NCBI RefSeq assembly: GCF_037076555.1
Contig: NZ_AP029023.1
Location: 1,240,001-1,304,000 of the forward strand
DNA length: 64,000 nucleotides
From: Methylophilus sp. DW102
GTDB lineage: Bacteria; Pseudomonadota; Gammaproteobacteria; Burkholderiales; Methylophilaceae
Direction of reading: 5' to 3'
The position numbers were made by a program, and so were the translations under genes. The notes beneath the pieces were generated by a model that ran no database searches, was not told the DNA's origin, and saw nothing but the letters and a program-made list of their open reading frames with translations. Positions 1 to 64,000 of the stretch are shown piece after piece (position 1 is the first letter of the stretch; the number at the start of each line of letters is the position of its first letter).

Positions 1-3000
1 CAGTGGCAAGACCCCAGCGACTAACTTCACAATTGATACAAGTACAGTAGGCGTGCCGACGATCACGGCGATTAACGATGACGTTGCGCCGATTACAGGG
101 ACAGTTGCACAAGGTGGAGACACTAATGACACTACGCCTACTGTTGTTGGTACAGCACCAGCGGGTGCGGTCAGTGTAGAAGTGTTCTTGAATGGTGTTT
201 CACAAGGTACGGTTGCTGTGAATAACGGTAGCTGGAGCTTTACGCCGAAAACGCCGTTGGCTGATGGAGCTTATGGCTTCAAGGCAATTGCGATCAACGC
301 AGCAGGCAAGCCAAGTGATGCGACCCCAGAGTACAAGATCAATGTAGATACGAAAGCGCCGGTAGCGCCTACGATAGACGACGTACAAGATGATGTTGGT
401 AGCAAGCAAGGCACGGTTGTGAATACTGGTGTGACAGATGACACCACGCCGACGATTTCTGGTAAAGGTGAAGCTGGTTCACAGATCACTGTGTACGATG
501 GCAATACCGTATTAGGCACAACGACCGTGAAGGCGGATGGTACTTGGAGCTTTACGCCAACAACGACGTTGGTTGATGGCTTGCATACGTTTACAGCGAA
601 GTCTACGGACAAGGCTGGCAATGAGTCGCCAACCTCTAACAGCTATGCAGTGACGATAGACACACAAGCGCCGAACAAGCCGACGATAGACAGTGTCTTT
701 GATGATGTAGGTGCGGTGACGGGTAATGTATCGAATGGTGGCTTTACCGATGATGCTAAGCCTACGATCAGTGGTAAAGGTGAGCCTGGCTCCACTATTA
801 CTGTATATGACGGCAAGAATGCGATTGGTACAACCGTTGTAAAAGCGGATGGTACATGGAGTCTTGAGCCCTCTAGCCCATTGCTGAACGGTACAAGAGA
901 GTTGACGGCTGTTTCTACGGATGCTGCTGGTAACAACAGTGTGCCTAGTGACAAGTACGTGATCAATGTCGACACGAATGCGCCACAAGACCCATCAATT
1001 GTTCGGATTGACGACGACTTTGGTGCAAAACAAGGACCGATTCAGAAGAACAGCACAACAGACGATACGACGCCGACTGTGGTAGGTACAGCGGGAGCTA
1101 ATCTGAAAATCAATGTTTATGACAATGGTGTACTGATTGGCACAACGACTTCTGATGCGAAGGGAGACTGGGTATTTACACCGACTAAGCCATTGAGCGA
1201 AGGCAATCACAATATTACTGCGACCGCAGTAAGTGCAGCTGGGGTTGAAAGTGGCAAGACAGGTGGGTTCCCATTTGTAGTAGACACCACGCCACCTGCG
1301 GTGAACGTGAACCAAATCACCGATGACGTTGCCCCGAAAGTTGGAGCGATCAACACTGGGGATACGACAGACGACAACACCCCAACGGTAAGTGGTACAG
1401 GCGAGCCTGGAGCTACGATCACTGTGTACGATAACAATCAGCCGATTGGTACGACCACAGTGCAGCCAGACGGTACTTGGAGCTTCACACCGACGACCCC
1501 ATTGGTAGATGGGCCGCACAGTATCAATGTCACGGCGACAGATGCTGCTGGCAATACCAGTGGCAAGACCCCAGCGACTAACTTCACAATTGATACAAGT
1601 ACAGTAGGCGTGCCGACGATCACGGCGATTAACGATGACGTTGCGCCGATTACAGGGACAGTTGCACAAGGTGGAGACACTAATGACACTACGCCTACTG
1701 TTGTTGGTACAGCACCAGCGGGTGCGGTCAGTGTAGAAGTGTTCTTGAATGGTGTTTCACAAGGTACGGTTGCTGTGAATAACGGTAGCTGGAGCTTTAC
1801 GCCGAAAACGCCGTTGGCTGATGGAGCTTATGGCTTCAAGGCAATTGCGATCAACGCAGCAGGCAAGCCAAGTGATGCGACCCCAGAGTACAAGATCAAT
1901 GTAGATACGAAAGCGCCGGTAGCGCCTACGATAGACGACGTACAAGATGATGTTGGTAGCAAGCAAGGCACGGTTGTGAATACTGGTGTGACAGATGACA
2001 CCACGCCGACGATTTCTGGTAAAGGTGAAGCTGGTTCACAGATCACTGTGTACGATGGCAATACCGTATTAGGCACAACGACCGTGAAGGCGGATGGTAC
2101 TTGGAGCTTTACGCCAACAACGACGTTGGTTGATGGCTTGCATACGTTTACAGCGAAGTCTACGGACAAGGCTGGCAATGAGTCGCCAACCTCTAACAGC
2201 TATGCAGTGACGATAGACACACAAGCGCCGAACAAGCCGACGATAGACAGTGTCTTTGATGATGTAGGTGCGGTGACGGGTAATGTATCGAATGGTGGCT
2301 TTACCGATGATGCTAAGCCTACGATCAGTGGTAAAGGTGAGCCTGGCTCCACTATTACTGTATATGACGGCAAGAATGCGATTGGTACAACCGTTGTAAA
2401 AGCGGATGGTACATGGAGTCTTGAGCCCTCTAGCCCATTGCTGAACGGTACAAGAGAGTTGACGGCTGTTTCTACGGATGCTGCTGGTAACAACAGTGTG
2501 CCTAGTGACAAGTACGTGATCAATGTCGACACGAATGCGCCACAAGACCCATCAATTGTTCGGATTGACGACGACTTTGGTGCAAAACAAGGACCGATTC
2601 AGAAGAACAGCACAACAGACGATACGACGCCGACTGTGGTAGGTACAGCGGGAGCTAATCTGAAAATCAATGTTTATGACAATGGTGTACTGATTGGCAC
2701 AACGACTTCTGATGCGAAGGGAGACTGGGTATTTACACCGACTAAGCCATTGAGCGAAGGCAATCACAATATTACTGCGACCGCAGTAAGTGCAGCTGGG
2801 GTTGAAAGTGGCAAGACAGGTGGGTTCCCATTTGTAGTAGACACCACGCCACCTGCGGTGAACGTGAACCAAATCACCGATGACGTTGCCCCGAAAGTTG
2901 GAGCGATCAACACTGGGGATACGACAGACGACAACACCCCAACGGTAAGTGGTACAGGCGAGCCTGGAGCTACGATCACTGTGTACGATAACAATCAGCC

Positions 3001-5412
3001 GATTGGTACGACCACAGTGCAGCCAGACGGTACTTGGAGCTTCACACCGACGACCCCATTGGTAGATGGGCCGCACAGTATCAATGTCACGGCGACAGAT
3101 GCTGCTGGCAATACCAGTGGCAAGACCCCAGCGACTAACTTCACAATTGATACAAGTACAGTAGGCGTGCCGACGATCACGGCGATTAACGATGACGTTG
3201 CGCCGATTACAGGGACAGTTGCACAAGGTGGAGACACTAATGACACTACGCCTACTGTTGTTGGTACAGCACCAGCGGGTGCGGTCAGTGTAGAAGTGTT
3301 CTTGAATGGTGTTTCACAAGGTACGGTTGCTGTGAATAACGGTAGCTGGAGCTTTACGCCGAAAACGCCGTTGGCTGATGGAGCTTATGGCTTCAAGGCA
3401 ATTGCGATCAACGCAGCAGGCAAGCCAAGTGATGCGACCCCAGAGTACAAGATCAATGTAGATACGAAAGCGCCGGTAGCGCCTACGATAGACGACGTAC
3501 AAGATGATGTTGGTAGCAAGCAAGGCACGGTTGTGAATACTGGTGTGACAGATGACACCACGCCGACGATTTCTGGTAAAGGTGAAGCTGGTTCACAGAT
3601 CACTGTGTACGATGGCAATACCGTATTAGGCACAACGACCGTGAAGGCGGATGGTACTTGGAGCTTTACGCCAACAACGACGTTGGTTGATGGCTTGCAT
3701 ACGTTTACAGCGAAGTCTACGGACAAGGCTGGCAATGAGTCGCCAACCTCTAACAGCTATGCAGTGACGATAGACACACAAGCGCCGAACAAGCCGACGA
3801 TAGACAGTGTCTTTGATGATGTAGGTGCGGTGACGGGTAATGTATCGAATGGTGGCTTTACCGATGATGCTAAGCCTACGATCAGTGGTAAAGGTGAGCC
3901 TGGCTCCACTATTACTGTATATGACGGCAAGAATGCGATTGGTACAACCGTTGTAAAAGCGGATGGTACATGGAGTCTTGAGCCCTCTAGCCCATTGCTG
4001 AACGGTACAAGAGAGTTGACGGCTGTTTCTACGGATGCTGCTGGTAACAACAGTGTGCCTAGTGACAAGTACGTGATCAATGTCGACACGAATGCGCCAC
4101 AAGACCCATCAATTGTTCGGATTGACGACGACTTTGGTGCAAAACAAGGACCGATTCAGAAGAACAGCACAACAGACGATACGACGCCGACTGTGGTAGG
4201 TACAGCGGGAGCTAATCTGAAAATCAATGTTTATGACAATGGTGTACTGATTGGCACAACGACTTCTGATGCGAAGGGAGACTGGGTATTTACACCGACT
4301 AAGCCATTGAGCGAAGGCAATCACAATATTACTGCGACCGCAGTAAGTGCAGCTGGGGTTGAAAGTGGCAAGACAGGTGGGTTCCCATTTGTAGTAGACA
4401 CCACGCCACCTGCGGTGAACGTGAACCAAATCACCGATGACGTTGCCCCGAAAGTTGGAGCGATCAACACTGGGGATACGACAGACGACAACACCCCAAC
4501 GGTAAGTGGTACAGGCGAGCCTGGAGCTACGATCACTGTGTACGATAACAATCAGCCGATTGGTACGACCACAGTGCAGCCAGACGGTACTTGGAGCTTC
4601 ACACCGACGACCCCATTGGTAGATGGGCCGCACAGTATCAATGTCACGGCGACAGATGCTGCTGGCAATACCAGTGGCAAGACCCCAGCGACTAACTTCA
4701 CAATTGATACAAGTACAGTAGGCGTGCCGACGATCACGGCGATTAACGATGACGTTGCGCCGATTACAGGGACAGTTGCACAAGGTGGAGACACTAATGA
4801 CACTACGCCTACTGTTGTTGGTACAGCACCAGCGGGTGCGGTCAGTGTAGAAGTGTTCTTGAATGGTGTTTCACAAGGTACGGTTGCTGTGAATAACGGT
4901 AGCTGGAGCTTTACGCCGAAAACGCCGTTGGCTGATGGAGCTTATGGCTTCAAGGCAATTGCGATCAACGCAGCAGGCAAGCCAAGTGATGCGACTCCAG
5001 AGTACAAGATCAATGTAGATACGAAAGCGCCGGTAGCGCCTACGATAGACGACGTACAAGATGATGTTGGTAGCAAGCAAGGCACGGTTGTGAATACTGG
5101 TGTGACAGATGACACCACGCCGACGATTTCTGGTAAAGGTGAAGCTGGTTCACAGATCACTGTGTACGATGGTAATACCGTATTAGGCACAACGACCGTG
5201 AAGGCGGATGGTACTTGGAGCTTTACGCCGACAACGACGTTGGTAGATGGGTTACATACGTTTACAGCGAAGTCTACGGACAAGGCTGGCAATGAGTCGC
5301 CAACCTCTAACAGCTATGCAGTGACGATAGACACACAAGCGCCGAACAAGCCGACGATAGACAGTGTCTTTGATGATGTAGGTGCGGTGACGGGTAATGT
5401 ATCGAATGGTGG
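1..5412 (+). repeat. 1557-bp tandem repeat encoding five Ig-like domains per unit
   Basis: Units start at 1, 1558, 3115 and 4672: three full copies and about 740 bp of a fourth. The unit is 519 codons, exactly five Ig-like domains of about 104 residues. Copies 1-3 look essentially identical in DNA. The fourth carries a few silent changes (for example near 4996, 5171 and 5229-5256) and then diverges abruptly at about 5412 into related but distinct domain sequence. The array continues beyond the left edge, so total copy number is unknown. Near-perfect identity suggests recent expansion or gene conversion, and such arrays are often collapsed in short-read assemblies. Confidence 0.95.
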
Positions 5413-8400
5413 CGTAGCCGATGACCCAACCCCAACCTTGAGTGGTAAGGCTGAAGCTGGTAGCACCGTGACTGTTTATGACGGCAAAAATGCGATTGGC
5501 ACAGCTATCGCTGACAAAAACGGTAACTGGACATTTACACCATCAACAGATATTGCTAAAGGCCTGCATAACTATACGGTGACTGCAACTGACAACGCTG
5601 GCAATACCAGTGTGCCAAGTGACAACTACGCCTACACTTTGAACCAGTCACCAGTGTTTGTGACTTTAAATGGTAGTGCCACTGTGTCTGAAGACGGTTT
5701 GCCAAATGGTGTTCTGGATCAAGGTGAGCCTTCAAATATTATTGCTTCTGGTGATTTGGGTATCTCCGATCCAAATGGCGATTTGCAGAGTGTGACATTG
5801 ACTGCGCCAACTCAAACTTATACCTCTGGTGGTGTCGCAATTACCTGGACAGGTAACAACACCGGGACGTTGATTGGCTCTGCTAATGGTCAGGAAATCT
5901 TGCGCATATCCATTGATACCTCAGGCAAGTACGCTGTCAAGCTGTCTGGCCCGCTGGATCACCCTGCTCAAGGTGAGGATACGCTTGCCCTGAAGTTTGG
6001 TGTAAATGCTAAAGACTCTGATACCACAACTACTGGTTCTATCACTGTTAATGTGGTTGATGATGCGCCGATTGCTACCAATCAGACGGTCACTGCTCAG
6101 GGCGACAAAGGCACAAACATCATGTTTACCATTGATGTCTCTGGCAGTATGGCGACATTGGATGGTGTCAATGGAACCTCACGTCTTGCTAGTGAAGTGA
6201 AGTCCATCAATACCTTGTTGGATCAATATGCTTCATTGGGCGGTGATGTTCGTGTCATGATCGTGACTTTCTCTGATGGCTATTATCAGAAAACACCAAC
6301 TTGGGTGACCATCTCAGAGGCAAAACAAGTGCTTGCTTCACTGCAAACGTTATCTGGCACCAATTATGATGCGGCGCTGGATGGAAGCAAAACAGCCTTT
6401 AACTCTGCCGGTAAGATCTCAGGCGCACAAAACATTGGTTACTTCTTCTCTGATGGCGAGCCAAATAGTGGCCGTGAAGTAGGGGATAGCGATAGACAGG
6501 CATGGGAAGCCTTCCTGAAAGCCAATAACATCAATGAATATGCGATTGGTGTGGGTAGCAGTGTATCTGCAACACAGGTGGCTAACAGCATGAACCAGAT
6601 TGCTTATAATGGATCAACCAGCACCGATACAAATGCAATTCAGGTATCTAACTTTGCGCAATTGGATGCTGTACTGAGCCAGACTGTACCAACCCCTGTA
6701 GTTGGCAGCTTGACCAGTGGTGGTGGCTTTGGCGCTGATGGTGGCTATGTCAAGTCAGTGGCGATTGAGGGCACCACTTATACCTTTGATGCTAAAACTG
6801 GTTCAATTTCAGTCGCTGGGACAAATAATAGCTCTTACAATGCGACGACTCATCAGCTAACAGTGGTTACCAAAGCTGGCACATTTGTTGTAGACATGGA
6901 CGACGGTAAATATGCCTTTACGCCAGGCCAACCAAAAGTAACCCTGATCAATACCACTTTTGATGCTAACGCTAATGGTCAGCAAACATCCCTGCCATCG
7001 GGTTGGTTCACGAATAACCCTAGTGGTAAGATTGAAGTCCAGGCAAGCACCATTTATGGCTTGTCAGCGAGTTACGGGAATGTGCTTGAGATTGAAAACT
7101 TTAAAGGCGATGGCAATATTTATACGCTCATCAATCCGTCTAAAAATGATACGGTTACTTTAAGTTTTGATTATGCAGCACGCTCCGGTTATACCTCTGG
7201 TACCGACTCTGCGATTCAGGTTCTTGTAGATGGTAAGGTCATTGATACCGTCAATACTAAAAACCTGACGATGACCACTTTCTCTTATACCTTCACAGGG
7301 ACTGGTAGCCAGATGCGCGTGGAGTTTAAATCAGTGGATACGAACAGTACCGGTGGTCTGCTTGATAACATTAAAATCACGACTTCAAGCACTACCCAGC
7401 CTGCAGACAGCACTAAAGTTACTTATACATTAAGTGACAAAGATGGCGACACCAGCACTGCTGATTTGACGGTGAATGTGGCGAAAAATAATACCTATAC
7501 ACCTACACCGCAGGTGGCGCCTGATGTCTCGACGGCTGTCGGTGCGGCTGGCTTGATTACCTTGCCTGGTCTGTTGAATGTTGATTTGCTTGACTTCTCA
7601 AGTCGTCAGAATTTCACAGCAAGTGATGCCAATAACAACATTACTAACGTCAATATTGCGTTCAATGCTGGGATTGGTGTGATCATCGGCTCTACACTGA
7701 TGAGTTACTCGCAAGCAGTAGCGAATGAGTTAGGCTTAAAAGTAAGCTATACAGAAAGTAGCGGCTTCCTTGGCTTAATCGGTGCAAATGGCAAACTGGT
7801 GGTTACAGCTGCTGACGGTGGCACGATCGACAACCTTGCTCTGAATGAATTCCTGTCAACGGTGAAGGTGAATCCGCAGCTTCTTGGCGTCAATGTGTTG
7901 GAAAACTTTACGATCACTGCAACTGACAGTACTGGCCTGCAAGATAGCGCAAGTGCAAGCAATCTGCTCAATCTCAGCTTGTTGAGTAGCAATAACACTA
8001 CGCCAATTATCGGTGGTGATGCAGGTGACAACGTTGTTAACGGTACCTCCGGCAATGACATTATCTACGGCTACGCTGGCAACGATACCTTGAATGGTGG
8101 CGATGGTAATGACATCCTGCGTGGTGGTGCTGGTAATGACACCTTGAACGGCGGTAATGGCAACGACATCCTGATCGGTGGTAAAGGTAACGATACCCTG
8201 ACCGGCGGCGCGGGTGTGGATGTGTTCAAGTGGGATCAAGGCGATGATGGTTCTGCTGGCGCGCCTGCACGTGACACGATCACAGATTTCAACAAAGCGC
8301 CTGTCAACCAAGGCGGCGATGTATTGGATATCCGTGATTTGTTGCAAGGTGAAAATCCAAACAACTTGGTCAACTACATGCACTTCGAGAAATCAGGCAG

Positions 8401-8593
8401 CGATACCATTATTCATATCAGTTCGAATGGTGGCTTTGCTAATGATGCACACAATGTTTCAGGTGCATTCAATAGTGGTCAAGAAACGCAGACCATTGTG
8501 GTGGCTGGTGTCGATTTAACCAACGGCCAAACCAGCGATGCAGCCGTGATCGCAAACCTGCTGACACAGCAAAATATTGTTGTGGATCACTAA
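2..8593 (+). CDS. Giant RTX/Ig-repeat adhesin, type I secreted (5' partial)
   Basis: The reading frame is open from base 2, so the N-terminus lies outside the window and the GTG at 53 is internal. In order the protein has tandem bacterial Ig-like domains of about 104 residues (1-5640), then a T1SS-143-like cadherin/Ig domain (about 5645-6075). A von Willebrand A domain follows (about 6115-6710) with a full MIDAS: DVSGS at 6134, SGTNYD, and SDGEP. Next come further beta-rich domains and about six GNDxLxGG RTX nonapeptides (about 8012-8220). The acidic C-terminal tail is typical of LapA/VCA0849-type type I secretion signals. The family builds cell-surface adhesins for biofilm or attachment, exported by an ABC-MFP-TolC machine. 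No such exporter genes are in this window. A retention module or LapG site, if present, would be upstream. Confidence is high for the class; the ligand is unknown. Confidence 0.93.
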
Positions 8594-8620
8594 TCGCAGC
8601 AGTATTGCTAATAGCAGTTC

Positions 8621-8651
8621 AAGAGCGACCCTTGTGGTCGCTCTTTTTTTA
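8621..8651 (+). terminator. Rho-independent terminator of the adhesin gene
   Basis: GAGCGACC (8623-8630), a five-base loop, and GGTCGCTC (8636-8643) form a perfect 8-bp stem. A run of T follows, 30 bp after the adhesin stop codon. Confidence 0.9.
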
Positions 8652-8680
8652 TTCAGCGTTTGGGTTTGATACAGGCAATA

Positions 8681-8709
8681 AAAAAGAGCGCTGCTTGAGC
8701 GCTCTTTTT
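8681..8709 (-). terminator. Bidirectional hairpin terminator after prpD
   Basis: AAAAAGAGCGCT (8681-8692) and AGCGCTCTTTTT (8698-8709) pair perfectly around a five-base loop. The arms carry A and T runs, so the hairpin can stop transcription from either side. It sits just past the prpD stop on the minus strand, separating that operon from the adhesin gene. Confidence 0.85.
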
Positions 8710-8728
8710 AGAGACTGAGTTTGCGTTG

Positions 8729-10189
8729 TTATAGCGCCAGCATATCTACAAACGCATTCACAGCAGTGGCTTCCAGCTTGGCCTGATCCTGACACAAGGC
8801 CAAAATGTCGGCTTGTCTTGATGTGTCAAAGCGACGTGCCAGATTGGTTTTGAATTTCTTCACCAGTTCCGGGATGCCTTCGCCACGGCGGCGGCGATGG
8901 CCAATCGGGTATTCCACCGCAATGTTGCTGGATTGCGTGCCATCCTTAAAGTAAATCTGAATGGCATTGGCAATGGATCGTTTTTCCGGATCCAGATAGT
9001 CACGCGTATATTCTGCTTTTTCGACGCAAGTCATCTTGTCACGCAGTGCATCTATGCGCGGATCAGCGGCTGCGGCATCTTCGTAATCCTGTGCAGTTAA
9101 ACTTCCTTTGAGCAAACCAACGGCTGCCATATATTGAATACAATGGTCGCGGTCAGCAGGGTTATCCAACGGGCCGGTTTTATCGATGATGCGAATGGCG
9201 GACTCGTGTGTGGTGATAATAATCTTGTCGATGTTGGCAATGTCTTCCAGGGTTTGCAGACGGCTGCCCACTTCCTTGTTGAGCTGGAAAGCGCACTCCA
9301 CCGCTGTTTGCGCGTGAAATTCGGCCGGGAAGGAGATTTTGAACAATACCTGCTCCATCACATAGCTGCCGTAAGGGCGCTGGAACTTGAAGGCATTACC
9401 TTTGAACAAGACATCATAAAAGCCCCAGGTTTTGGCTGTGAGTGCACTTGGGTAGCCCATTTCACCTTGCAAGGTCATCCAGGCCAGACGCACCGCTCGC
9501 GAGGTGGCATCGCCTGCCGCCCAGGATTTACGTGAACCGGTGTTTGGACTATGACGGTAGGTACGCAAGCTTTGACCATCAACAAAGGCGTTAGACACAG
9601 CATTGATAATATCCTGCTTGTTGCCCCCCAGTAATTTGGTCACGACAGCGGTAGAGGCAATTTTAACCAGAATGACGTGGTCCAGACCCACTCTGTTAAA
9701 GCTGTTTTCCAGCGCCAGTATGCCCTGAATTTCATGCGCCTTGATCATGGCGGTAAGTACGTCTTTCATGGTCAATGGCGCTTTGCCTTCGGCCACATTT
9801 TTGCGCGACATGTAATCCGCTGAAGCCAGAATCCCGCCCAGGTTGTCAGATGGATGTCCCCATTCTGCGGCCAGCCAGGTGTCATTAAAATCCAGCCAGC
9901 GGATCATGGCGCCAATATTAAAAGCGGCCAGGATAGGGTCCAGCTGATAAGGGGTGCCGGGAACTTTGGCGCCATTCGGCACAACCGTACCGGCAATCAC
10001 GGGGCCTAGTAATTTGGTACAGGCGGGATAATCCAATGCCTCGAAACCACAGCCCAGCGTATCCATCAGGCAGTTGCGGGCGGTATCGTAAGCTTCATGA
10101 GAGTTGATTTCAAAATCTGCCACGTAGTTGGCGATATCTACAATGACTTGATCGGGATCGGGACGTACATTAGAAATATGGGCGGACAT
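8729..10189 (-). CDS. prpD: 2-methylcitrate dehydratase PrpD
   Basis: Dehydrates 2-methylcitrate to 2-methyl-cis-aconitate in the methylcitrate cycle; cytoplasmic. The 486-residue protein aligns along its length with the MmgE/PrpD family, with the usual segments [10 protein letters not shown] near the N-terminus, WLDFNDTW and [10 protein letters not shown]. The frame extends to a TTG at 10204, but the ATG at 10187-10189 gives the normal family start ([13 protein letters not shown]). It is the last gene of a minus-strand operon after prpB and prpC. No prpF or acnD is present. The hydration of methylaconitate is therefore probably done by AcnB, encoded at 26.5 kb. Confidence 0.95.
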
Positions 10190-55941: not shown

Positions 55942-58900
55942 ATGAACAAGCTTGCTGTCACCCCGTTTGCCCAGGATAGCCAAACACATGGCAGCGCACC
56001 TGGCCGCCAGCAACTGTTGCAGCAGCTGGCACAGCTTTGGCAGCAAGGGGCCACTGAAGCCTGCTTTAGCATTGCCCGGCAGTTAACAAGTGAGTTTCCA
56101 AAAGAGGGGATTGCCTGGAAAATTTTGGGCGGTTTACTGCAACAGCGCGGTGACCTGCAAGGCGCCGGCGAGGCCCTTGCGCAAGCCGTCAAGCTGCTTA
56201 AAAAAGATGCAGAGGTATTCTTGAATGCCGCGAACGTAGCCGCGCAACTGGGGGATGTGACCCTGGCCACCAAGCATTATCGTCAGGCGATCCGTTTAAA
56301 TCCATCCATGACCCGCGCTTATGCCAATCTGGCCAGCTTGCTCAAAGAAGCCGGGCAGCAGAAAGAAGCCGAGAAACTGTTGCGTACCGCTTTGCAGCTC
56401 AACAAGCGCGATGCACTGGTATTGTTTGACCTGGCGGCGTTGCTGCATGAATCCGGCAAGTCACTTGAGGCTGTGCAATATTATCGTCAGGCGCTAGAGA
56501 TTGAGCCTGACAATGCCGTGCTGGCCTACAACATGGCACAAGTCTTGTTTGTCCTGGGTAACCTGGATGAGGCGCTGGTACATTTTCAGCGCGCCATTGA
56601 TCTGAACCCGACCTATTTTGATGCACTGCACCAGTACGGGCATTGTCTGCGGCAAAAAAACCGTTTTAAGGAAGCCGAGCAAGTGTGGTTGCAAGCCCGG
56701 GTACTCAATCCTGAGAGCTGGCAGTTGCTCAATGACCTGGCTCAACTGTATAAACAGTTACAACAACCGTTGGAATATGAAGCTTGCGCCAAGGCCATCA
56801 TGCAGGTCAAAGCGCCAGAGATCGAAGAACTCAATAACTTTACCTCTACCCTGATTAACCAGCAGTTGCTCACTGAAGCAGAACGTTATTGCAAGCAAGC
56901 GATGAGCCTGGGGATCGAAGATCCGTTTACCTATTGCAATATGGCTTTGCTGCTGTATTACAAACAAGAGTATGCACAATCTCTGGAATATTATGAAAAA
57001 GCGTTGCAGCTCAAGCCGGACTGCGCCGCTTTTTGGAGTAACTACAGTGTTTCGCTGCGTTTGGTTGGCGAGGTGGAGCGTGCGCGGCAGGCTCTGGAAA
57101 AGGCGATTGCGCTGGATCCTGAGTATCTGGACTCTTACATCAATCTGGGCAGTGCCTATCTGGAGCAGGGCGATGTCAAGCTGGCGGTGGAGACTTATGT
57201 CAAGCTCATCGCACGCGCACCCCATTTGGATAAAGCCTACCGTAACCTGTTATACACCAACAGTTTTGCCAATGAGCTGAGCCCGAAAGAGCATTTAAAG
57301 TATGCACGTGCCTGTGGTGAGCAGTTCATGGCCAAGGCTGCACCTTTCAAAAACTGGTTGGTCAACGCGCAAGACCAGCGTTTGCGCATTGGTCTGGTGT
57401 CTGCAGATTTGCGCAGTCATCCGGTGGGCTATTTTCTTGAGCATTGGTTAAAACATATCAATGCCGGTAAAACAGAAATCTATGCTTACTCAGCCGATGG
57501 GCGTGAGGACAATTACAGCCAGGTCTTGAAAAAACACTGCACGCAATGGCGTTCATTGGCTGGCATGAATGATGCCCGTGCTGCCAGCCTTATCCGTGAA
57601 GATGGCATTCATATTCTGCTCGACCTCTCTGGCTATACGGCAGACAGCCGCGTGTCATTATTTGCCTGGCGTCCGGCGCCCGTGCAGGCCTCCTGGCTGG
57701 GCTACTGGGACACCACAGGCCTGCCCACCATGGATGCGGTGCTTGCTGACCCGGTCAGCGTGCCTGCGGGTAGTGAAGGGCAATTTACCGAAAGCGTTGT
57801 CAAACTGCCGCATACCCGTTTGTGTTTCTCAGCACCTGACTCCAATGAGCAGGTGAATGCGTTACCTGCCTTGCAAAATGGCTATGTGACCTTTGGCTGC
57901 TTTCAAAAATACAGCAAGGTCAGCGACGAGGTATTGACGGTTTGGGCACAAGTGTTTCTTGCACTGCCTGCGGCCAAACTTTACTGGCAGTGCAAGGCCT
58001 TTCAAGATGACCAGATACAAGCTGAAGCCCTGGCCAGACTGCAACAAGCGGGTATCCAGCCTGAACAATGTGTCTTGATGCGTCCCACAGCGCGAGATGC
58101 CTATTTCAAAAACTATCATGCTGTAGACATGATTCTGGACAGTTTCCCCTTTAACGGCGGGACAACGACCTGCGAAGCCTTGTGGATGGGCGTACCTACG
58201 CTAACCATGCCAGGCGAGACCATGATCTCCCGCCAAGGCGCCAGCATGATGACCAGCGCTGGCTTGCCAGAGTGGGTTGCCGAAGATAAGAAAGCTTTTG
58301 TACAAAAAGCAATTCAATTCGCTGCGGATTTACCTGCTCTTGCCAATCTGCGGGCAGGCTTACGTGCGCAAGTGATGCGCTCCCCATTGATGGATGGCGA
58401 GCGTTTTGCACGCGATATGGAACAGTTGCTGTGGAATGTCTGGAGCGAGCGGGTGACGGGTATTGCCGACGCGCTGTTGACTAAAACACGCATTCAGGAC
58501 GCTTATGCCGGTGAGGATCCAGTCTGGATCATTAGCGCCACTCGGGCCAGTGAAGAGGCCTTCTGGGATTCTTCTGCACTCGGCGTATCGCTCAAGCGGC
58601 ATATGCAGCAAGATGCCAGAATCGTTCCGTATGTGTATTACGAAAATACACGCGGTCTATCCGAAGTTTTTAATGAGGCCGTTGCCATCGCGCCTGACAA
58701 TGCGCTGGTCATTTTTGCCCATGACGATATCTGGCTGGACCAGAACCCTTTTGTGCAAACTGTGATGGATGGCCTGGCGGCCTATGATGTGATTGGCGTC
58801 GCCGGCACTGCGCGCATGTTGCCCAAGCAACCGGCATGGTTATTTACCGACCTTGCCTTTACCTGGGAGCAGTCTGCGTTCTTGCGTGGCAAGGTTGCGC

Positions 58901-61900
58901 ACAGCGAACACCCGTTTGGGCACAACACTTATTTTGGTGCTGAACAAGGCGATTGCGTCTTGATGGATGGTGTCTTCATGGCCGCCTACAAACGCACGCT
59001 GACGCAAGCCAATGTGCGCCATGACCCGCAATTTGATTTTGAATTTTATGACCTGGATTTTTGCCGTACAGCGACCCAGGCCGGGCTTAAGCTTGGCATT
59101 TGGCCGATCAGCCTGACGCACCAGAGCATGGGCAATTTTGGCAAGCAGCGCTGGCGTGACAAATATCAGATGTATCTGCATAAATGGGGTGAGGGTGAGG
59201 CCGCAGTTGGCACGCCGATGACAGCAGAACTTGGCGCTGCGCTTGAAGAAGTGTTTACACTGGCTCTGCAGCATCAGCAAGCGGGTGATCTGCAAACCGC
59301 GACACAGTTATATCAAGAGATTCTGGCGGTTGCTCCACAATCCGCCGCTGCCTGGTTTAATCTGGGACTCATCGCCTGGGCGCAAGGGCATCAGCAAGAG
59401 GCCGTGGCCTGTTTTGCGCAAGCCCATGCTGCGCAACCGGCTGAATGGGAGTATCTGCAACATTATTTGGTGGCCATGCATGCCACGGCGAGTGCCGATA
59501 CCTTGGCTGCCACCTTTGAGCAAGCCATGGCATTGCCGCAGCATGCGGAGGCGGTGCACCAGCTTGCCGAAGCGTTACAGATGCCTGGGTTCACTCGCCA
59601 ATCCGGGCAACATGCACAAGCTTCGTCGCAAGACGCAGCCATGCAACCGGATGCCGCCCAGCAACAAGCCTTGCTTACAGCGTTTGAGCAGCAACAATAT
59701 GGACAAATGGAACAGGCCCTGCACACCTATTTGGGGCAATATCCGCAGTGGCTGGCGGGCTGGAAAATGCTAGCGGATGTCTTGATGCTGCAAAAAAAGG
59801 ATGCCAGCGCTGCGGCCAAACAGGCCCTGACATTGAATGCGCAAGATCCACAAGAACATTGCTATTACGGCATCGTCCTCAAGGCCAAGGGAGATCTGCC
59901 TGGAGCGGCAACTGCCTTTCAACAAGCGATTGCCCTCAAGTCGGACTACGCTGCGGCTTACAATAATCTGGGGACAGTGCTCAAGGATCTGGGTCAGGTA
60001 GAAACGGCCATCGAGCACTTTAAATGCGCATTGGCCTTGCAACCCAACTATGCCGATTGCTTCAGCAACTTGCTGTTTTGCATGACCCACGCAGAACACA
60101 TAGACAATGCCGCACTCATGCAAGCACATCAAGCCTATGCCGACTTGTATGAAGCGCCGCTCAAAGCAGCCTGGCTGCCACATCAGAATACACGTGACGT
60201 GCACAGGCCACTTAATATCGGCTGGGTCTCTGCAGATTTCAGGGCCCATTCGGTCGCGCACTTTATGCTGCCTTTACTTAATGAGCTGGCCAAAGAAACC
60301 TCTCTGCGCTTGGTTGCCTATGCCAATCAACCGCTGGTGGATAATGTCACCACCCAGATGCAGGGCTATTTTTCAACATGGTACGAAGTCTCATCCTGGT
60401 CAGACCAGGCACTGGCCGAGCAAATCCGGGCTGACGGCATTGACATCCTGATTGATTTATCTGGTCATACCTCAGGCAACCGCTTGCTGACATTTGCGCG
60501 CAAGCCTGCACCTGTTCAGGTGAGCTGGCTGGGCTACCTCAACACCACCGGCTTGAGCAGCATGGATTATTACCTGGCAGACTCTTATCTGTTGCCCCCC
60601 GGCCAGTTTGATGACCAGTTTACTGAAAAGCTGGTGCAGCTGCCGGTGAATGCTACCTTTATCCCATATGAGCAAGCGCCAGAGGTGAATTCCTTGCCTG
60701 CACTGAACAACGGCTATGTCACGTTTGCTTGCTTTAACCGGATTCTCAAAATCACCCAGGCTACCGTGCAACAATGGGCCGCGTTGATGCAAGCCTTGCC
60801 TGACAGCCGCCTGGTGATTGGTGGGGTGGGAGAGGGCGAAAGCACGCAGCATTTGCAAACCTGGTTTGCCGAAGCTGGCATTGCCGCTAACCGCATCCGC
60901 TATTACGCACGCACTGACATGGCAAGCTATTTAGGCTATTACCACGAGGTCGATATTTGCCTGGATACCTTCCCCTCCAACGGCGTCACCACCACTGCAC
61001 ATGCGCTGTGGATGGGCGTGCCCACGTTATGTGTTGCCGGTGACCGCTTAGCAAGCCGTGGCGCCATGGCATTGATGCAGCATCTGGGGTTGATGCAGTT
61101 TATTGCCTCAGACCATGACAGCCTGATCAAGCAGACCCTGGACCTGTGTGCTGACTTTACAAAGTTGGCAGCGTGTCGCGCCCACATGCGTGAACACTTT
61201 TCTAACAGTTTGCTCGCCAAACCTGGCTTGCAAGCAGAGGCGTTACGCCAGATGTTATTCCAGATGTGGCAACGCTGGTGTGCGCAACAGGCCCCAGCTT
61301 CAATTCAAAGCAGATGGGTGGATGCCGACCTATCTCACCCCACTCTACATATGGAGCCAGAGATGCTTGTGGAAGAAATTGATACTATAGAAGCCGTAAA
61401 CACACTTTCTCCTGTCACGCCTAGTAGTGATTTAATGGCTGCCGCCCAGAAATTACAGGCAGAAGGAGAGATTACGCAGGCTGCTGAACTTTATCTTGCC
61501 TTGCTTAAGGCAGAACCCCAACATGCGGAAGCCAATTTCCAGTTGGGATGGATTGAAACACATACCCGCGGTGTCACATTCGCTTTGCCAAGACTGGAGC
61601 AAGCAGTCATGCAGCAGCCAGAAGTAGAGCAATATTGGGTTACCTATATTGATGCATTGATGATGCAAGACAACATTCGAGCAGCGCTCTTGGCTATTCA
61701 GCAAGGGCAGCAACATGGGTTAACCGCTGCGTCAGCAGCCATGCTGATGAATGATTGCATGCAAGCGGCGAGCCAACAGTTTGCTGAGAAAAACAAGTCT
61801 GATTCAGCCCTGGTTTCTGTCGAGCAATTACAACAACAGCTATTTGCTGAAAGCAAGATGCAGACGACTGTTACCGATGACGTGCCAGTGTCCGTTGTCC

Positions 61901-63084
61901 CTCAGCAGCCTCTGTTAGCGCAACCTGTTCAGTGGTTTAACAAGACAAAACCACTTGCGGATCAGACAGTCTTCCCTGAAAGCTGGTTAAAGGCTTATCC
62001 TCAGGCATTGATGATTGAGTACACTTCCCGTTGTAATTTGCGCTGCAAGTATTGCTCCAAGAGTAATCCCGGTGACGACCAAATTCCTGGGCGTAATATG
62101 GATATGACAACCACAACCGTGGATGCGGTCATTCATTTAATCGAGCAATCTTCTTATAGCGAGTTGTTGCTGGCAGGAACCGGCGAGTCTACTTTTCATC
62201 CGCATTGGCGTGAAGATTTTCCACGCATGATACACGCTGGCAAGTCTCGTAATCCGTCATGTTATATCCATGTCAACAGCAACTTTGCGGCCAAATATGA
62301 AGATGAGGATTGGGCGGTCTTTGCCCAGCTAGACGGGATCGTGATCTCAATTGACACCGCTGATCGGCAATTGACACGTGAGGTGCGCGCAAAGTCCGAC
62401 CTCGGTTTGATTATTTACAACATTACCCGTTTGCAGACTTATTGCCAGTTTCACGGCCTCAAGTTACCCAAACTGACGGTGAACGTCACTTTATATCATG
62501 AAGCCGCTGCTGGCCTGCCTGAATTGATGGCGATGCTTTCTAATTTGCCGATCACGTCGGTGACGATTTCAGATTTGTTTGAGCGTGAAGCCACTGACAA
62601 ACATGCGATTCGTCCTTTGCATAACGATGATCCAGTGTCATTCAAGCAAGCTGTTGAGCATTTAAAACATGCCATGGAAATTGCAGATAAGCAGCAGGGC
62701 TTTCGCGTCACCATACAGCCACATTTGATGGAGAGAATCGAAGCGATGGCGAGAAGTATCAATGCTGCTGCCACTGATACAGGCACTGTGCAGGCCGATC
62801 CGCAACTTTCCACCAAACTTTGTTTGCAGCCTTGGACACGCTTTACACTGGCGGCCGATGCTGCGATCTTCCCTTGCTGTATGACTGAAATGGATCCAGT
62901 GGGCAATCTCGATAGTGGCAAAGAAGAGGAGGGGTTGAACGGTGAAGGGATTCGTGCTTTCCGTCATGCCTTGCTGCGTGGTGATATGCCAACCTCCTGC
63001 AAGCATTGCACGAATGCACCAGATGTCAGCCCGCAAACCCTGCAGGCAGCAATCCATGAACTTTCAAGAAAGGCCAATGCATGA
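55942..63084 (+). CDS. Multi-domain TPR - OGT - GT - TPR - OGT - TPR - radical SAM protein
   Basis: A 2380-residue cytoplasmic fusion. Residues about 20-460 are TPR repeats. About 480-836 is a SPINDLY/OGT-type (GT41) glycosyltransferase domain (GLVSADLRSHPVGYFLEHW, LLDLSGYTADSR, LDSFPFNGGTTTCEALWMGV). About 860-1083 is a GT-A-like domain (IFAHDDIWLDQNPF, DFEFYDLDFCRTA). About 1096-1390 is a second TPR array. About 1423-1783 is a second OGT domain (GWVSADFRAHSVAHF, LDTFPSNGVTTTAHALWMGV). About 1831-1937 is a third, short TPR array. About 2018-2310 is a radical SAM domain with C2031, C2035 and C2038 (CNLRCKYC), and late Cys motifs FPCC and CKHC resemble a SPASM site. The start at 55942 (MNKLAVTP) is chosen over 55864 for lack of better evidence. 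It probably glycosylates and otherwise modifies a surface protein such as flagellin; the substrate is unknown. Confidence 0.85.
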   Translation: MNKLAVTPFAQDSQTHGSAPGRQQLLQQLAQLWQQGATEACFSIARQLTSEFPKEGIAWKILGGLLQQRGDLQGAGEALAQAVKLLKKDAEVFLNAANVAAQLGDVTLATKHYRQAIRLNPSMTRAYANLASLLKEAGQQKEAEKLLRTALQLNKRDALVLFDLAALLHESGKSLEAVQYYRQALEIEPDNAVLAYNMAQVLFVLGNLDEALVHFQRAIDLNPTYFDALHQYGHCLRQKNRFKEAEQVWLQARVLNPESWQLLNDLAQLYKQLQQPLEYEACAKAIMQVKAPEIEELNNFTSTLINQQLLTEAERYCKQAMSLGIEDPFTYCNMALLLYYKQEYAQSLEYYEKALQLKPDCAAFWSNYSVSLRLVGEVERARQALEKAIALDPEYLDSYINLGSAYLEQGDVKLAVETYVKLIARAPHLDKAYRNLLYTNSFANELSPKEHLKYARACGEQFMAKAAPFKNWLVNAQDQRLRIGLVSADLRSHPVGYFLEHWLKHINAGKTEIYAYSADGREDNYSQVLKKHCTQWRSLAGMNDARAASLIREDGIHILLDLSGYTADSRVSLFAWRPAPVQASWLGYWDTTGLPTMDAVLADPVSVPAGSEGQFTESVVKLPHTRLCFSAPDSNEQVNALPALQNGYVTFGCFQKYSKVSDEVLTVWAQVFLALPAAKLYWQCKAFQDDQIQAEALARLQQAGIQPEQCVLMRPTARDAYFKNYHAVDMILDSFPFNGGTTTCEALWMGVPTLTMPGETMISRQGASMMTSAGLPEWVAEDKKAFVQKAIQFAADLPALANLRAGLRAQVMRSPLMDGERFARDMEQLLWNVWSERVTGIADALLTKTRIQDAYAGEDPVWIISATRASEEAFWDSSALGVSLKRHMQQDARIVPYVYYENTRGLSEVFNEAVAIAPDNALVIFAHDDIWLDQNPFVQTVMDGLAAYDVIGVAGTARMLPKQPAWLFTDLAFTWEQSAFLRGKVAHSEHPFGHNTYFGAEQGDCVLMDGVFMAAYKRTLTQANVRHDPQFDFEFYDLDFCRTATQAGLKLGIWPISLTHQSMGNFGKQRWRDKYQMYLHKWGEGEAAVGTPMTAELGAALEEVFTLALQHQQAGDLQTATQLYQEILAVAPQSAAAWFNLGLIAWAQGHQQEAVACFAQAHAAQPAEWEYLQHYLVAMHATASADTLAATFEQAMALPQHAEAVHQLAEALQMPGFTRQSGQHAQASSQDAAMQPDAAQQQALLTAFEQQQYGQMEQALHTYLGQYPQWLAGWKMLADVLMLQKKDASAAAKQALTLNAQDPQEHCYYGIVLKAKGDLPGAATAFQQAIALKSDYAAAYNNLGTVLKDLGQVETAIEHFKCALALQPNYADCFSNLLFCMTHAEHIDNAALMQAHQAYADLYEAPLKAAWLPHQNTRDVHRPLNIGWVSADFRAHSVAHFMLPLLNELAKETSLRLVAYANQPLVDNVTTQMQGYFSTWYEVSSWSDQALAEQIRADGIDILIDLSGHTSGNRLLTFARKPAPVQVSWLGYLNTTGLSSMDYYLADSYLLPPGQFDDQFTEKLVQLPVNATFIPYEQAPEVNSLPALNNGYVTFACFNRILKITQATVQQWAALMQALPDSRLVIGGVGEGESTQHLQTWFAEAGIAANRIRYYARTDMASYLGYYHEVDICLDTFPSNGVTTTAHALWMGVPTLCVAGDRLASRGAMALMQHLGLMQFIASDHDSLIKQTLDLCADFTKLAACRAHMREHFSNSLLAKPGLQAEALRQMLFQMWQRWCAQQAPASIQSRWVDADLSHPTLHMEPEMLVEEIDTIEAVNTLSPVTPSSDLMAAAQKLQAEGEITQAAELYLALLKAEPQHAEANFQLGWIETHTRGVTFALPRLEQAVMQQPEVEQYWVTYIDALMMQDNIRAALLAIQQGQQHGLTAASAAMLMNDCMQAASQQFAEKNKSDSALVSVEQLQQQLFAESKMQTTVTDDVPVSVVPQQPLLAQPVQWFNKTKPLADQTVFPESWLKAYPQALMIEYTSRCNLRCKYCSKSNPGDDQIPGRNMDMTTTTVDAVIHLIEQSSYSELLLAGTGESTFHPHWREDFPRMIHAGKSRNPSCYIHVNSNFAAKYEDEDWAVFAQLDGIVISIDTADRQLTREVRAKSDLGLIIYNITRLQTYCQFHGLKLPKLTVNVTLYHEAAAGLPELMAMLSNLPITSVTISDLFEREATDKHAIRPLHNDDPVSFKQAVEHLKHAMEIADKQQGFRVTIQPHLMERIEAMARSINAAATDTGTVQADPQLSTKLCLQPWTRFTLAADAAIFPCCMTEMDPVGNLDSGKEEEGLNGEGIRAFRHALLRGDMPTSCKHCTNAPDVSPQTLQAAIHELSRKANA

Positions 63085-64000
63085 GCCAAGACACGATCAA
63101 CCAGATGGATGCTACGCCGGAGCAACTGATGGCCGAAGCTAATGCGCTGTTAGATCAACCGGAGCAAGTGTTAAAACACTATCAGGCTATTTTGCAGCAA
63201 TATCCTCGCTATGCACCTGCTTATCATCAACTTGGATTGGTTTTACGCTCACAAGGCGATACCGGTGCAATTGGCAAACTTGAACAGGCTATTCAGCTGG
63301 ATGCCGGGAATGAGCAATATTGGGGCAGCTATATTGAGGCGTTGATGTCCTTCGCGCAATTGCAAAAAGCTGCGGCGGCGATTCAGTTGGGGCTGCAATA
63401 TGGTTTAGGCGTGTCAAAAGCACACCTCCTGGCCCAGACATGTGTAGACCTAATGCAAGCGGCCGCGCCTTCAGACATGCGCAGTGCGAGTGAGGTGTCT
63501 ACTGCATTTGTCAACCCAGGCAACAAAGCGAAGGTTAAGATTTACCAAGCCTATTATTCAGAACAAAGTCGCCTCGAGTTGGATCAAGGATTTATTCCGT
63601 TTGATAACCTGGCCAACCCTAGACCAGACTGGCGCGAGTATTGGTTTATGCGGCAATATTTTTTGAATGAGCAGCTGGATGAAAATACGTTTTACGGATT
63701 TTTATCACCCAAATTTCACGAGAAAACCGGACTTTCTTCACAGCAAGTCTATTCTTTTATTGATGCTAATGCCGATCAGGCAGACATCATTTTATTTTCG
63801 CCCTTTTTTGACCAGACGGTGATGTATCTGAATCAGTTTCAGCAGGGAGTCCTCGCACATAAAGGGATCGAGCAATGTTTTAAAATGGTCATTAACAAAA
63901 TTGCACCTGGTACAGATATGAATGATCTCATCATGCACAGTGGCAATTCTGTTTACTCAAATTATTTTGTGGCGAAGCCAGTGTTCTGGCAAAAGTGGTT
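63081..64000 (+). CDS. TPR protein with uncharacterised glycosyltransferase-associated domain (3' partial)
   Basis: The ATG at 63081 overlaps the stop of the previous gene (ATGA), and the frame is open to the window end (306 codons). Residues about 10-130 contain TPR-like helices (HYQAILQQYPRYAPAYHQLG, AIGKLEQAIQLDAGNEQYW) very close in style to TPR3 of the upstream protein. From residue about 150 a different domain begins (VKIYQAYYSEQSRLELDQGF, ANPRPDWREYWFMRQYF, FYGFLSPKFHEKTGLS, ILFSPFFDQTVMYLN). It resembles an uncharacterised module I associate with large glycosyltransferase proteins. Probably acts with the upstream protein. Confidence 0.8.
   Translation, partial: MSQDTINQMDATPEQLMAEANALLDQPEQVLKHYQAILQQYPRYAPAYHQLGLVLRSQGDTGAIGKLEQAIQLDAGNEQYWGSYIEALMSFAQLQKAAAAIQLGLQYGLGVSKAHLLAQTCVDLMQAAAPSDMRSASEVSTAFVNPGNKAKVKIYQAYYSEQSRLELDQGFIPFDNLANPRPDWREYWFMRQYFLNEQLDENTFYGFLSPKFHEKTGLSSQQVYSFIDANADQADIILFSPFFDQTVMYLNQFQQGVLAHKGIEQCFKMVINKIAPGTDMNDLIMHSGNSVYSNYFVAKPVFWQKW

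Follow-up and report, generated by a model that had tools for sequence, protein, structure and literature searches.

The gene at 55942-63084 on the plus strand of the window (the whole analysed stretch of 64,000 nt from Methylophilus sp. DW102) is one unbroken ORF encoding a protein of 2380 residues. It is probably a flagellin glycan enzyme with an exchanged tailoring module, a radical SAM domain that would alter a sugar. From the N-terminus the domain order is TPR, SPINDLY-type GT41, probable GT-A, TPR, second GT41, TPR connector and radical SAM/SPASM. The genome has a size of 3.02 Mb and is represented by a single contig. The features are:

55942..63084, plus strand: whole gene, 2380 aa
55999..57276, plus strand: N-terminal TPR superhelix, residues about 20-445 (Pfam); candidate flagellin-binding arm by analogy with FlmG as described in the available part of PMC7591256
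57355..58446, plus strand: GT41 domain 1, residues 472-835, SPINDLY-like fold
58522..59187, plus strand: probable GT-A domain, residues 861-1082, PF13712, conserved HDD-W-D and D-DFCR motifs
59248..59526, plus strand: TPR stretch 2, residues 1103-1195
59647..60126, plus strand: TPR stretch 3, residues 1236-1395 (Pfam; boundaries by eye)
60199..61275, plus strand: GT41 domain 2, residues 1420-1778
61042..61640, no strand: left edge of the exchanged cassette, from identity to the conspecific; the BLAST match ends at 61640
61429..61737, plus strand: TPR connector, residues 1830-1932, of a kind recurring between modules here and in the 1153-aa gene
61984..63051, plus strand: radical SAM/SPASM module, residues 2015-2370
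62032..62055, plus strand: CX3CX2C radical SAM cluster motif, C2031/C2035/C2038
62821..63012, plus strand: SPASM region, residues 2294-2357; five cysteines invariant in 8 sequences
63081..64000, plus strand: start of the 1153-aa gene, which ends 2.5 kb beyond the window; module class 4, connectors, module class 1

Domain layout and the glycosyltransferase domains

On the whole protein Pfam reports GT41 (PF13844) in four matched stretches together with many TPR families. The TPR matches form four stretches (residues about 20-445, 1103-1195, 1236-1395 and 1830-1932). A preliminary description had proposed two OGT domains, a GT-A domain and a radical SAM domain on three TPR scaffolds; the domains are all found, while the number of TPR stretches has to be corrected to four. 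In the domain search that it had suggested, GT41, TPR, Radical_SAM and SPASM score above the Pfam cut-off and GT-A does so only as an isolated domain.

Both GT41 domains retain the His and Lys positions in an alignment with SPINDLY, as expected from the preliminary description. We take the His to be the active-site residue and the Lys to be nucleotide-binding. The two-lobed catalytic domain and both residues that characterize GT41 are present. Of the known GT41 structures, Arabidopsis SPINDLY and Thermobaculum OGT have a single GT41 domain, and SPINDLY targets plant proteins. The motif TTAHA does replace TTCEA in the second domain, yet it is no oddity: it is found in 13 of the 14 second GT41 domains listed, the pattern having missed the divergent L105. 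As a mark of a degenerate second GT41 it is ruled out. A second, short TPR-GT41 protein (593 aa; L009, 9942-11723) is encoded elsewhere in the genome and adjoins an MnmC-like gene, as judged by eye. All 8 congeners searched contain GT41 frames of 593-665 aa, one of these with an internal TAG.

The GT-A domain matches PF13712 above the cut-off when scored in isolation (30.2 bits; 25 bits in the whole protein versus a cut-off of 27), and seven of eight aligned relatives match this family. Hhalign of the domain against 4 GT2 proteins gave no match, and the best hit of a PDB sequence search had an E-value of 0.69. The structure search, covering mainly model residues 1-371, returned relatives of the GT41 part and no GT-A relative among the matches listed.

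The radical SAM/SPASM module

PF04055 (Radical_SAM) matches residues 2025-2161 with 29.6 bits in the whole protein and 32.6 bits in the isolated domain (cut-off 29.5). PF13186 (SPASM) is above its cut-off at residues 2294-2357. The intact CX3CX2C and the extra C-terminal cysteines noted earlier are borne out by C2031, C2035 and C2038 and by C2294, C2312, C2313, C2353 and C2356, the latter five being invariant in an alignment of eight sequences. All 17 invariant columns of this alignment, cysteines and GE included, are present here. With both Pfam families, CX3CX2C, GE and the five C-terminal cysteines the module is a member of the SPASM subgroup.

None of the named NCBIfam radical SAM equivalogs reaches its cut-off, the best scoring 81.7 versus 380 bits (TIGR04317; 25 of 30 listed). 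The top scores belong to metalloenzyme maturases, all far under cut-off. A structure predicted without alignment has a pLDDT of 50.9, and a fold search with this model retrieves radical SAM enzymes and unrelated TIM barrels equally. The best E-value in a PDB sequence search with the domain was 0.51.

The domain is absent from 186 other genomes of the family (E<=1e-10) and from 398 other genomes of the order (1e-8). It is matched in 12 of 397 other genomes of the phylum (1e-6), the match with the best E-value having 27% identity, and no open frame over 788 aa occurs among these phylum-wide matches. The three draws overlap. A widespread fusion with radical SAM is ruled out by these counts, and the survey for the same fusion elsewhere that had been proposed finds it in this strain only within the sample. 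Pattern scans for close relatives gave none in viral contigs and 0 among 18 stretches of genome contigs. PHROGs returned only weak generic radical SAM rows, and none for the other three pieces. A profile of eight sequences, this one included, was run on ORFs of at least 90 aa from 121 sequence sets (named and unnamed sets overlapping). It matches this protein and one separate gene, which has only 25% identity to our module over 115 residues. That gene (441 aa; L099, reverse strand 8347-9672) lies in another flagellin island, which also holds ATP-grasp, Gfo/Idh, Fe-ADH and FkbM genes.

The neighbourhoods of radical SAM relatives were inspected for four of 13 other matches of the phylum draw (L011, L012, L018, L020) and three of 13 plasmid records (H1-H3). 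Six of these genes, namely L011, L012, L018, H1, H2 and H3, adjoin glycosyltransferases, sugar enzymes or polysaccharide export genes. In L020 the radical SAM domain is fused to a methyltransferase within its own frame. Judged from this gene context, a sugar is the most likely substrate of the radical SAM module.

Peptides are frequent substrates of SPASM radical SAM enzymes, and SPASM domains are typical of peptide maturases. The module might accordingly work on the flagellin polypeptide itself, e.g. by epimerisation, crosslinking or side-chain oxidation, and leave its glycosylation to the GT domains. Several NCBIfam peptide-maturase models do score weakly, and the TPR arm would present flagellin to such an enzyme. 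We nevertheless regard a polypeptide substrate as rather unlikely. The radical SAM relatives examined sit among glycan genes, the isolated domain contains Radical_SAM, SPASM and Fer4_12 only and no peptide-recognition domain (Pfam), and every module named by Pfam at the same position in relatives is a glycosyltransferase or a methyltransferase.

The core in relatives and the exchanged cassette

Of the 186 other family genomes, 41 contain the GT-A domain, and a stretch was fetched for 40 of them. A GT41 stands ahead of GT-A within a single frame in all but two of these (38 of 40), the exceptions being L108 and L111. The homologues are therefore not always split, so that this case, named beforehand as one that would refute the proposal, does not apply. 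An alignment scan of genome contigs yielded 268 GT-A relatives. The best 80 were taken, many of them overlapping with the family genomes: GT41 comes ahead of GT-A within one frame in 36 of them but not in the other 44, among which L155 has GT41 after GT-A. The unfused loci are mostly single-domain proteins in other taxa, e.g. Variovorax, Pelomonas, Gallionella and Chlorobium. Outside the family such single-domain GT-A proteins measure ~225-280 aa (L143-L191, e.g. L160, L175, L181). Of the 44 unfused loci, 13 do have a GT41 frame within the stretch that was fetched. That the core is fused wherever GT-A occurs is ruled out, 44 of the 80 loci being unfused in that order. The fused core is typical of Methylophilaceae and a few other Betaproteobacteria, e.g. 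Nitrosomonas mobilis (L130). Broken copies were seen as well: L106 (G069) is split by a TGA, and G059 holds a second GT-A remnant with four stops (G059:C1:181364-182002).

Behind the core the proteins differ. The 41 C-terminal segments fall into ten classes, comprising methyltransferase (11), an unnamed fold of ~470 aa (10), GT2 (6), GT61 (5) and smaller classes. The protein described here is the only member of the radical SAM class. Class names derive from Pfam matches of few representatives per class, with class 9 (L154) left out of the scan, and Pfam gives no enzyme name for classes 1, 4 and 6. Several core proteins end with the connector without a further tail, and L107 has a short GT61-class segment. 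In a quick tree of 37 cores, 8 rows have no tail label, and L109 is cut by the contig end. The 29 labelled rows carry 8 tail types and need 8 changes versus a minimum of 7. Hence tails mostly track descent and swaps are occasional. Close cores with unlike tails are those of this strain (G000) and Methylophilus sp. 13 (G060), with branch lengths of 0.014 and 0.007. L099, likewise, has a close core and another tail inside the class 1 clade.

The conspecific Methylophilus sp. 13 (NZ_JADKYR010000001.1; stretches L073, L112) allows the exchange to be followed along the gene. DNA identity is about 97% into GT41 domain 2, and GT41 domain 1 and GT-A are both 98% identical. Per 50 codons, identity is 94-100% to residue 1700, 82.7% at residues 1701-1750 (61042-61191) and 63-74% at residues 1751-1900, then it is lost; the BLAST match stops at 61640. 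A swap point exactly at the connector is ruled out, as identity already drops within the end of GT41 domain 2. Homology returns at 71558 (window numbering, past the window end) before the flagellins. About 10 kb containing the radical SAM module and six genes are replaced as a block between the two strains. G+C content gives no sharp edge, ranging from 0.46 to 0.55 in window stretches and from 0.43 to 0.55 in the island beyond. The equivalent protein of Methylophilus sp. 13 has 3017 aa with connectors, a GT61 module and a GT2 module. It is followed in the cassette by a formyltransferase-ankyrin gene (403 aa; L073, reverse strand), presumably similar to QdtF-type sugar N-formyltransferases.

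In our strain the stop codon of the megaprotein overlaps the start of the 1153-aa gene (ATGA), which suggests translational coupling of the two. The 1153-aa protein resembles class 4 tails in its N-terminal part (38-42% identity) and class 1 tails in its C-terminal part (41-46%). The same kind of connector lies between its modules, and in some relatives both belong to the megaprotein itself. The GNAT-MT-FAD gene set of the cassette also accompanies core proteins in L085, L086, L106, L108 and Nitrosomonas mobilis L130. The aldo/keto reductase and PhyH-like genes have no match among the relatives' loci listed.

As it was seen in a single strain of those sampled, the radical SAM module might be a functionless passenger that arrived recently by cassette exchange. 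We consider this improbable. The frame is open, the 17 invariant columns including cysteines and GE are kept, and so are the connector linkage and the overlapping 1153-aa gene.

The flagellin island and the proposed function

The megaprotein gene heads an island that ends in three flagellins. It is followed by the genes for the 1153-aa TPR protein, a FemAB/GNAT-like acyltransferase, a methyltransferase and an FAD oxidoreductase (weak Pfam matches). Then come an aldo/keto reductase, a PhyH-like hydroxylase, an opposite-strand 2OG oxygenase, the three flagellins, FliD and FliS; a DegT aminotransferase gene separates the first flagellin from the second. The first flagellin was identified by Pfam, the two paralogues, FliD and FliS by eye. 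All three flagellins measure 266 aa (L007, 10331-15132). A promoter scan gave 6 sites versus 8.1 in shuffles. Methylophilus sp. 13 has three flagellins and the DegT gene at the same place. This aminotransferase is 98% identical between the strains and points to an amino sugar in both. The FemAB-like acyltransferase and methyltransferase of our strain versus the formyltransferase of Methylophilus sp. 13 suggest a different dressing of the amino sugar per strain. With glycosyltransferase and sugar-modifying genes adjoining flagellins and varying between strains, the locus has the make-up of a flagellin glycosylation island.

Of the 38 family loci counted (the 40 fetched stretches minus L111 with its 230-aa frame and L026, which was outside the filter), 25 have a flagellin downstream on the same strand. 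It is 6.6-7.4 kb away in all 11 methyltransferase-tailed relatives. In the best 80 of the 268 GT-A loci, with flanks ending 10 kb from GT-A, only 6 of the 36 fused loci and 2 of the 44 unfused ones have a flagellin. By gene neighbourhood, flagellin is the likely target.

In the remaining 13 of the 38 loci the fetched stretch, short in 4 cases, contains no flagellin, and the window holds a giant RTX-type adhesin. The main target might be such another surface protein, with flagellin nearby by chance. Since the adhesin is 47 kb off, whereas 25 of 38 family loci have a flagellin in their vicinity, this is highly improbable. The adhesin frame (53-8593, 2846 aa) has long internal repeats spaced 1557 bp, and minus-strand shadow frames at 995, 2552 and 4109 share one translation. 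Tandem Repeats Finder (periods <=500 bp) reports short glycine-rich repeats near its end only.

An assembly chimera, finally, is practically out of the question: the junction into the radical SAM module was seen in this genome only and in no second one sampled, but the frame is open on a single contig and passes in frame through the junction after a homologous connector, the right edge rejoins Methylophilus sp. 13, parts of the cassette occur in relatives' islands, and the core is fused in 38/40 family genomes fetched, so that the frameshift or assembly join considered in the preliminary description is not apparent.

We therefore return to the flagellin glycan enzyme. The megaprotein would be a cytoplasmic multi-site glycosyltransferase with flagellin as putative acceptor. 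The N-terminal TPR arm may hold flagellin, as in FlmG, and present it to GT41 domain 1, which would put the first sugar on Ser/Thr. GT-A and GT41 domain 2 would lengthen the chain or glycosylate more sites, in an order that we infer. The exchangeable tailoring module would sit after the second GT41, joined via the TPR connector. Here, radical SAM/SPASM would remove a hydrogen atom from a sugar, either in the flagellin glycan or in its activated precursor, both being candidate substrates, and yield an epimerised, oxidised, deoxygenated or otherwise altered sugar. Its partners could be the 1153-aa protein, the FemAB/GNAT-like acyltransferase, the methyltransferase, the FAD oxidoreductase, the aldo/keto reductase and the PhyH-like hydroxylase. 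Replacement of the whole cassette would shift the flagellar glycan type between strains. A further-reaching version is tentative and, to us, doubtful as yet: connector-based flagellin-glycan assembly lines with a fixed core and swappable modules on one or two chains, diversified by cassette exchange, in which radical SAM rewrites a sugar of the protein-bound glycan in cis.

Related systems are known in part. In Caulobacter FlmG, according to the available part of the source, a TPR domain binds flagellins and a GT domain glycosylates them (PMC7591256). The megaprotein shares the TPR arm N-terminal to a GT domain, seems comparable as a soluble enzyme, and has flagellins as candidate targets. In contrast, FlmG as described there binds flagellin with its N-terminal domain, has its GT domain at the C-terminus and uses pseudaminic acid (PMC7591256), whereas the megaprotein combines two GT41 domains with one GT-A and one radical SAM module. 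Flagellin islands of Enterobacteria contain GT41-methyltransferase fusions (PMC4875605, available part). They resemble our locus in a SPINDLY-type GT41 fused to a tailoring enzyme, a variable island by the flagellin gene, DegT aminotransferases and modification genes replaced from strain to strain. They differ in that the main text has 0 occurrences of radical SAM and its available part describes no double GT41 plus GT-A core and no TPR connectors. As GT41-methyltransferase fusions are published (PMC4875605), the joining of a glycosyltransferase and a tailoring enzyme in one chain has precedents. Successive modification of one glycoprotein, much as first proposed from the sequence, remains the best reading. 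The type B flagellin cluster of Clostridioides difficile builds a peptidylamido sugar (PMC5207246, available part). It shares a glycosyltransferase with a methyltransferase domain, a FemAB-like acyltransferase, an FdtB-like aminotransferase and ATP-grasp (as in L099). In that part of the source its PF00535 glycosyltransferases are separate genes, and neither GT41 nor a radical SAM module is described.

A GT41-radical SAM fusion is not named in the literature searched (titles and abstract openings among the matches listed, covering few subscription papers). For flagellin glycosylation together with radical SAM a single paper came up, which deals with a Rickettsia genome. Within the literature searched, again with few subscription papers, no description of the radical SAM module, the double-GT41 plus GT-A core or the recurrent connector was found either.

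The locus ties natural diversity of flagellar glycans to the exchange of enzyme modules on one scaffold. Such diversity may be relevant to recognition by phages and grazers. The two conspecifics, with near-identical cores and unlike tails, are a natural comparison for module function, radical SAM included, and the connector idea suggests joining points for such enzymes. If the in-cis reading is true, an unusual radical SAM tailoring would be coupled to protein O-glycosylation in a single polypeptide.
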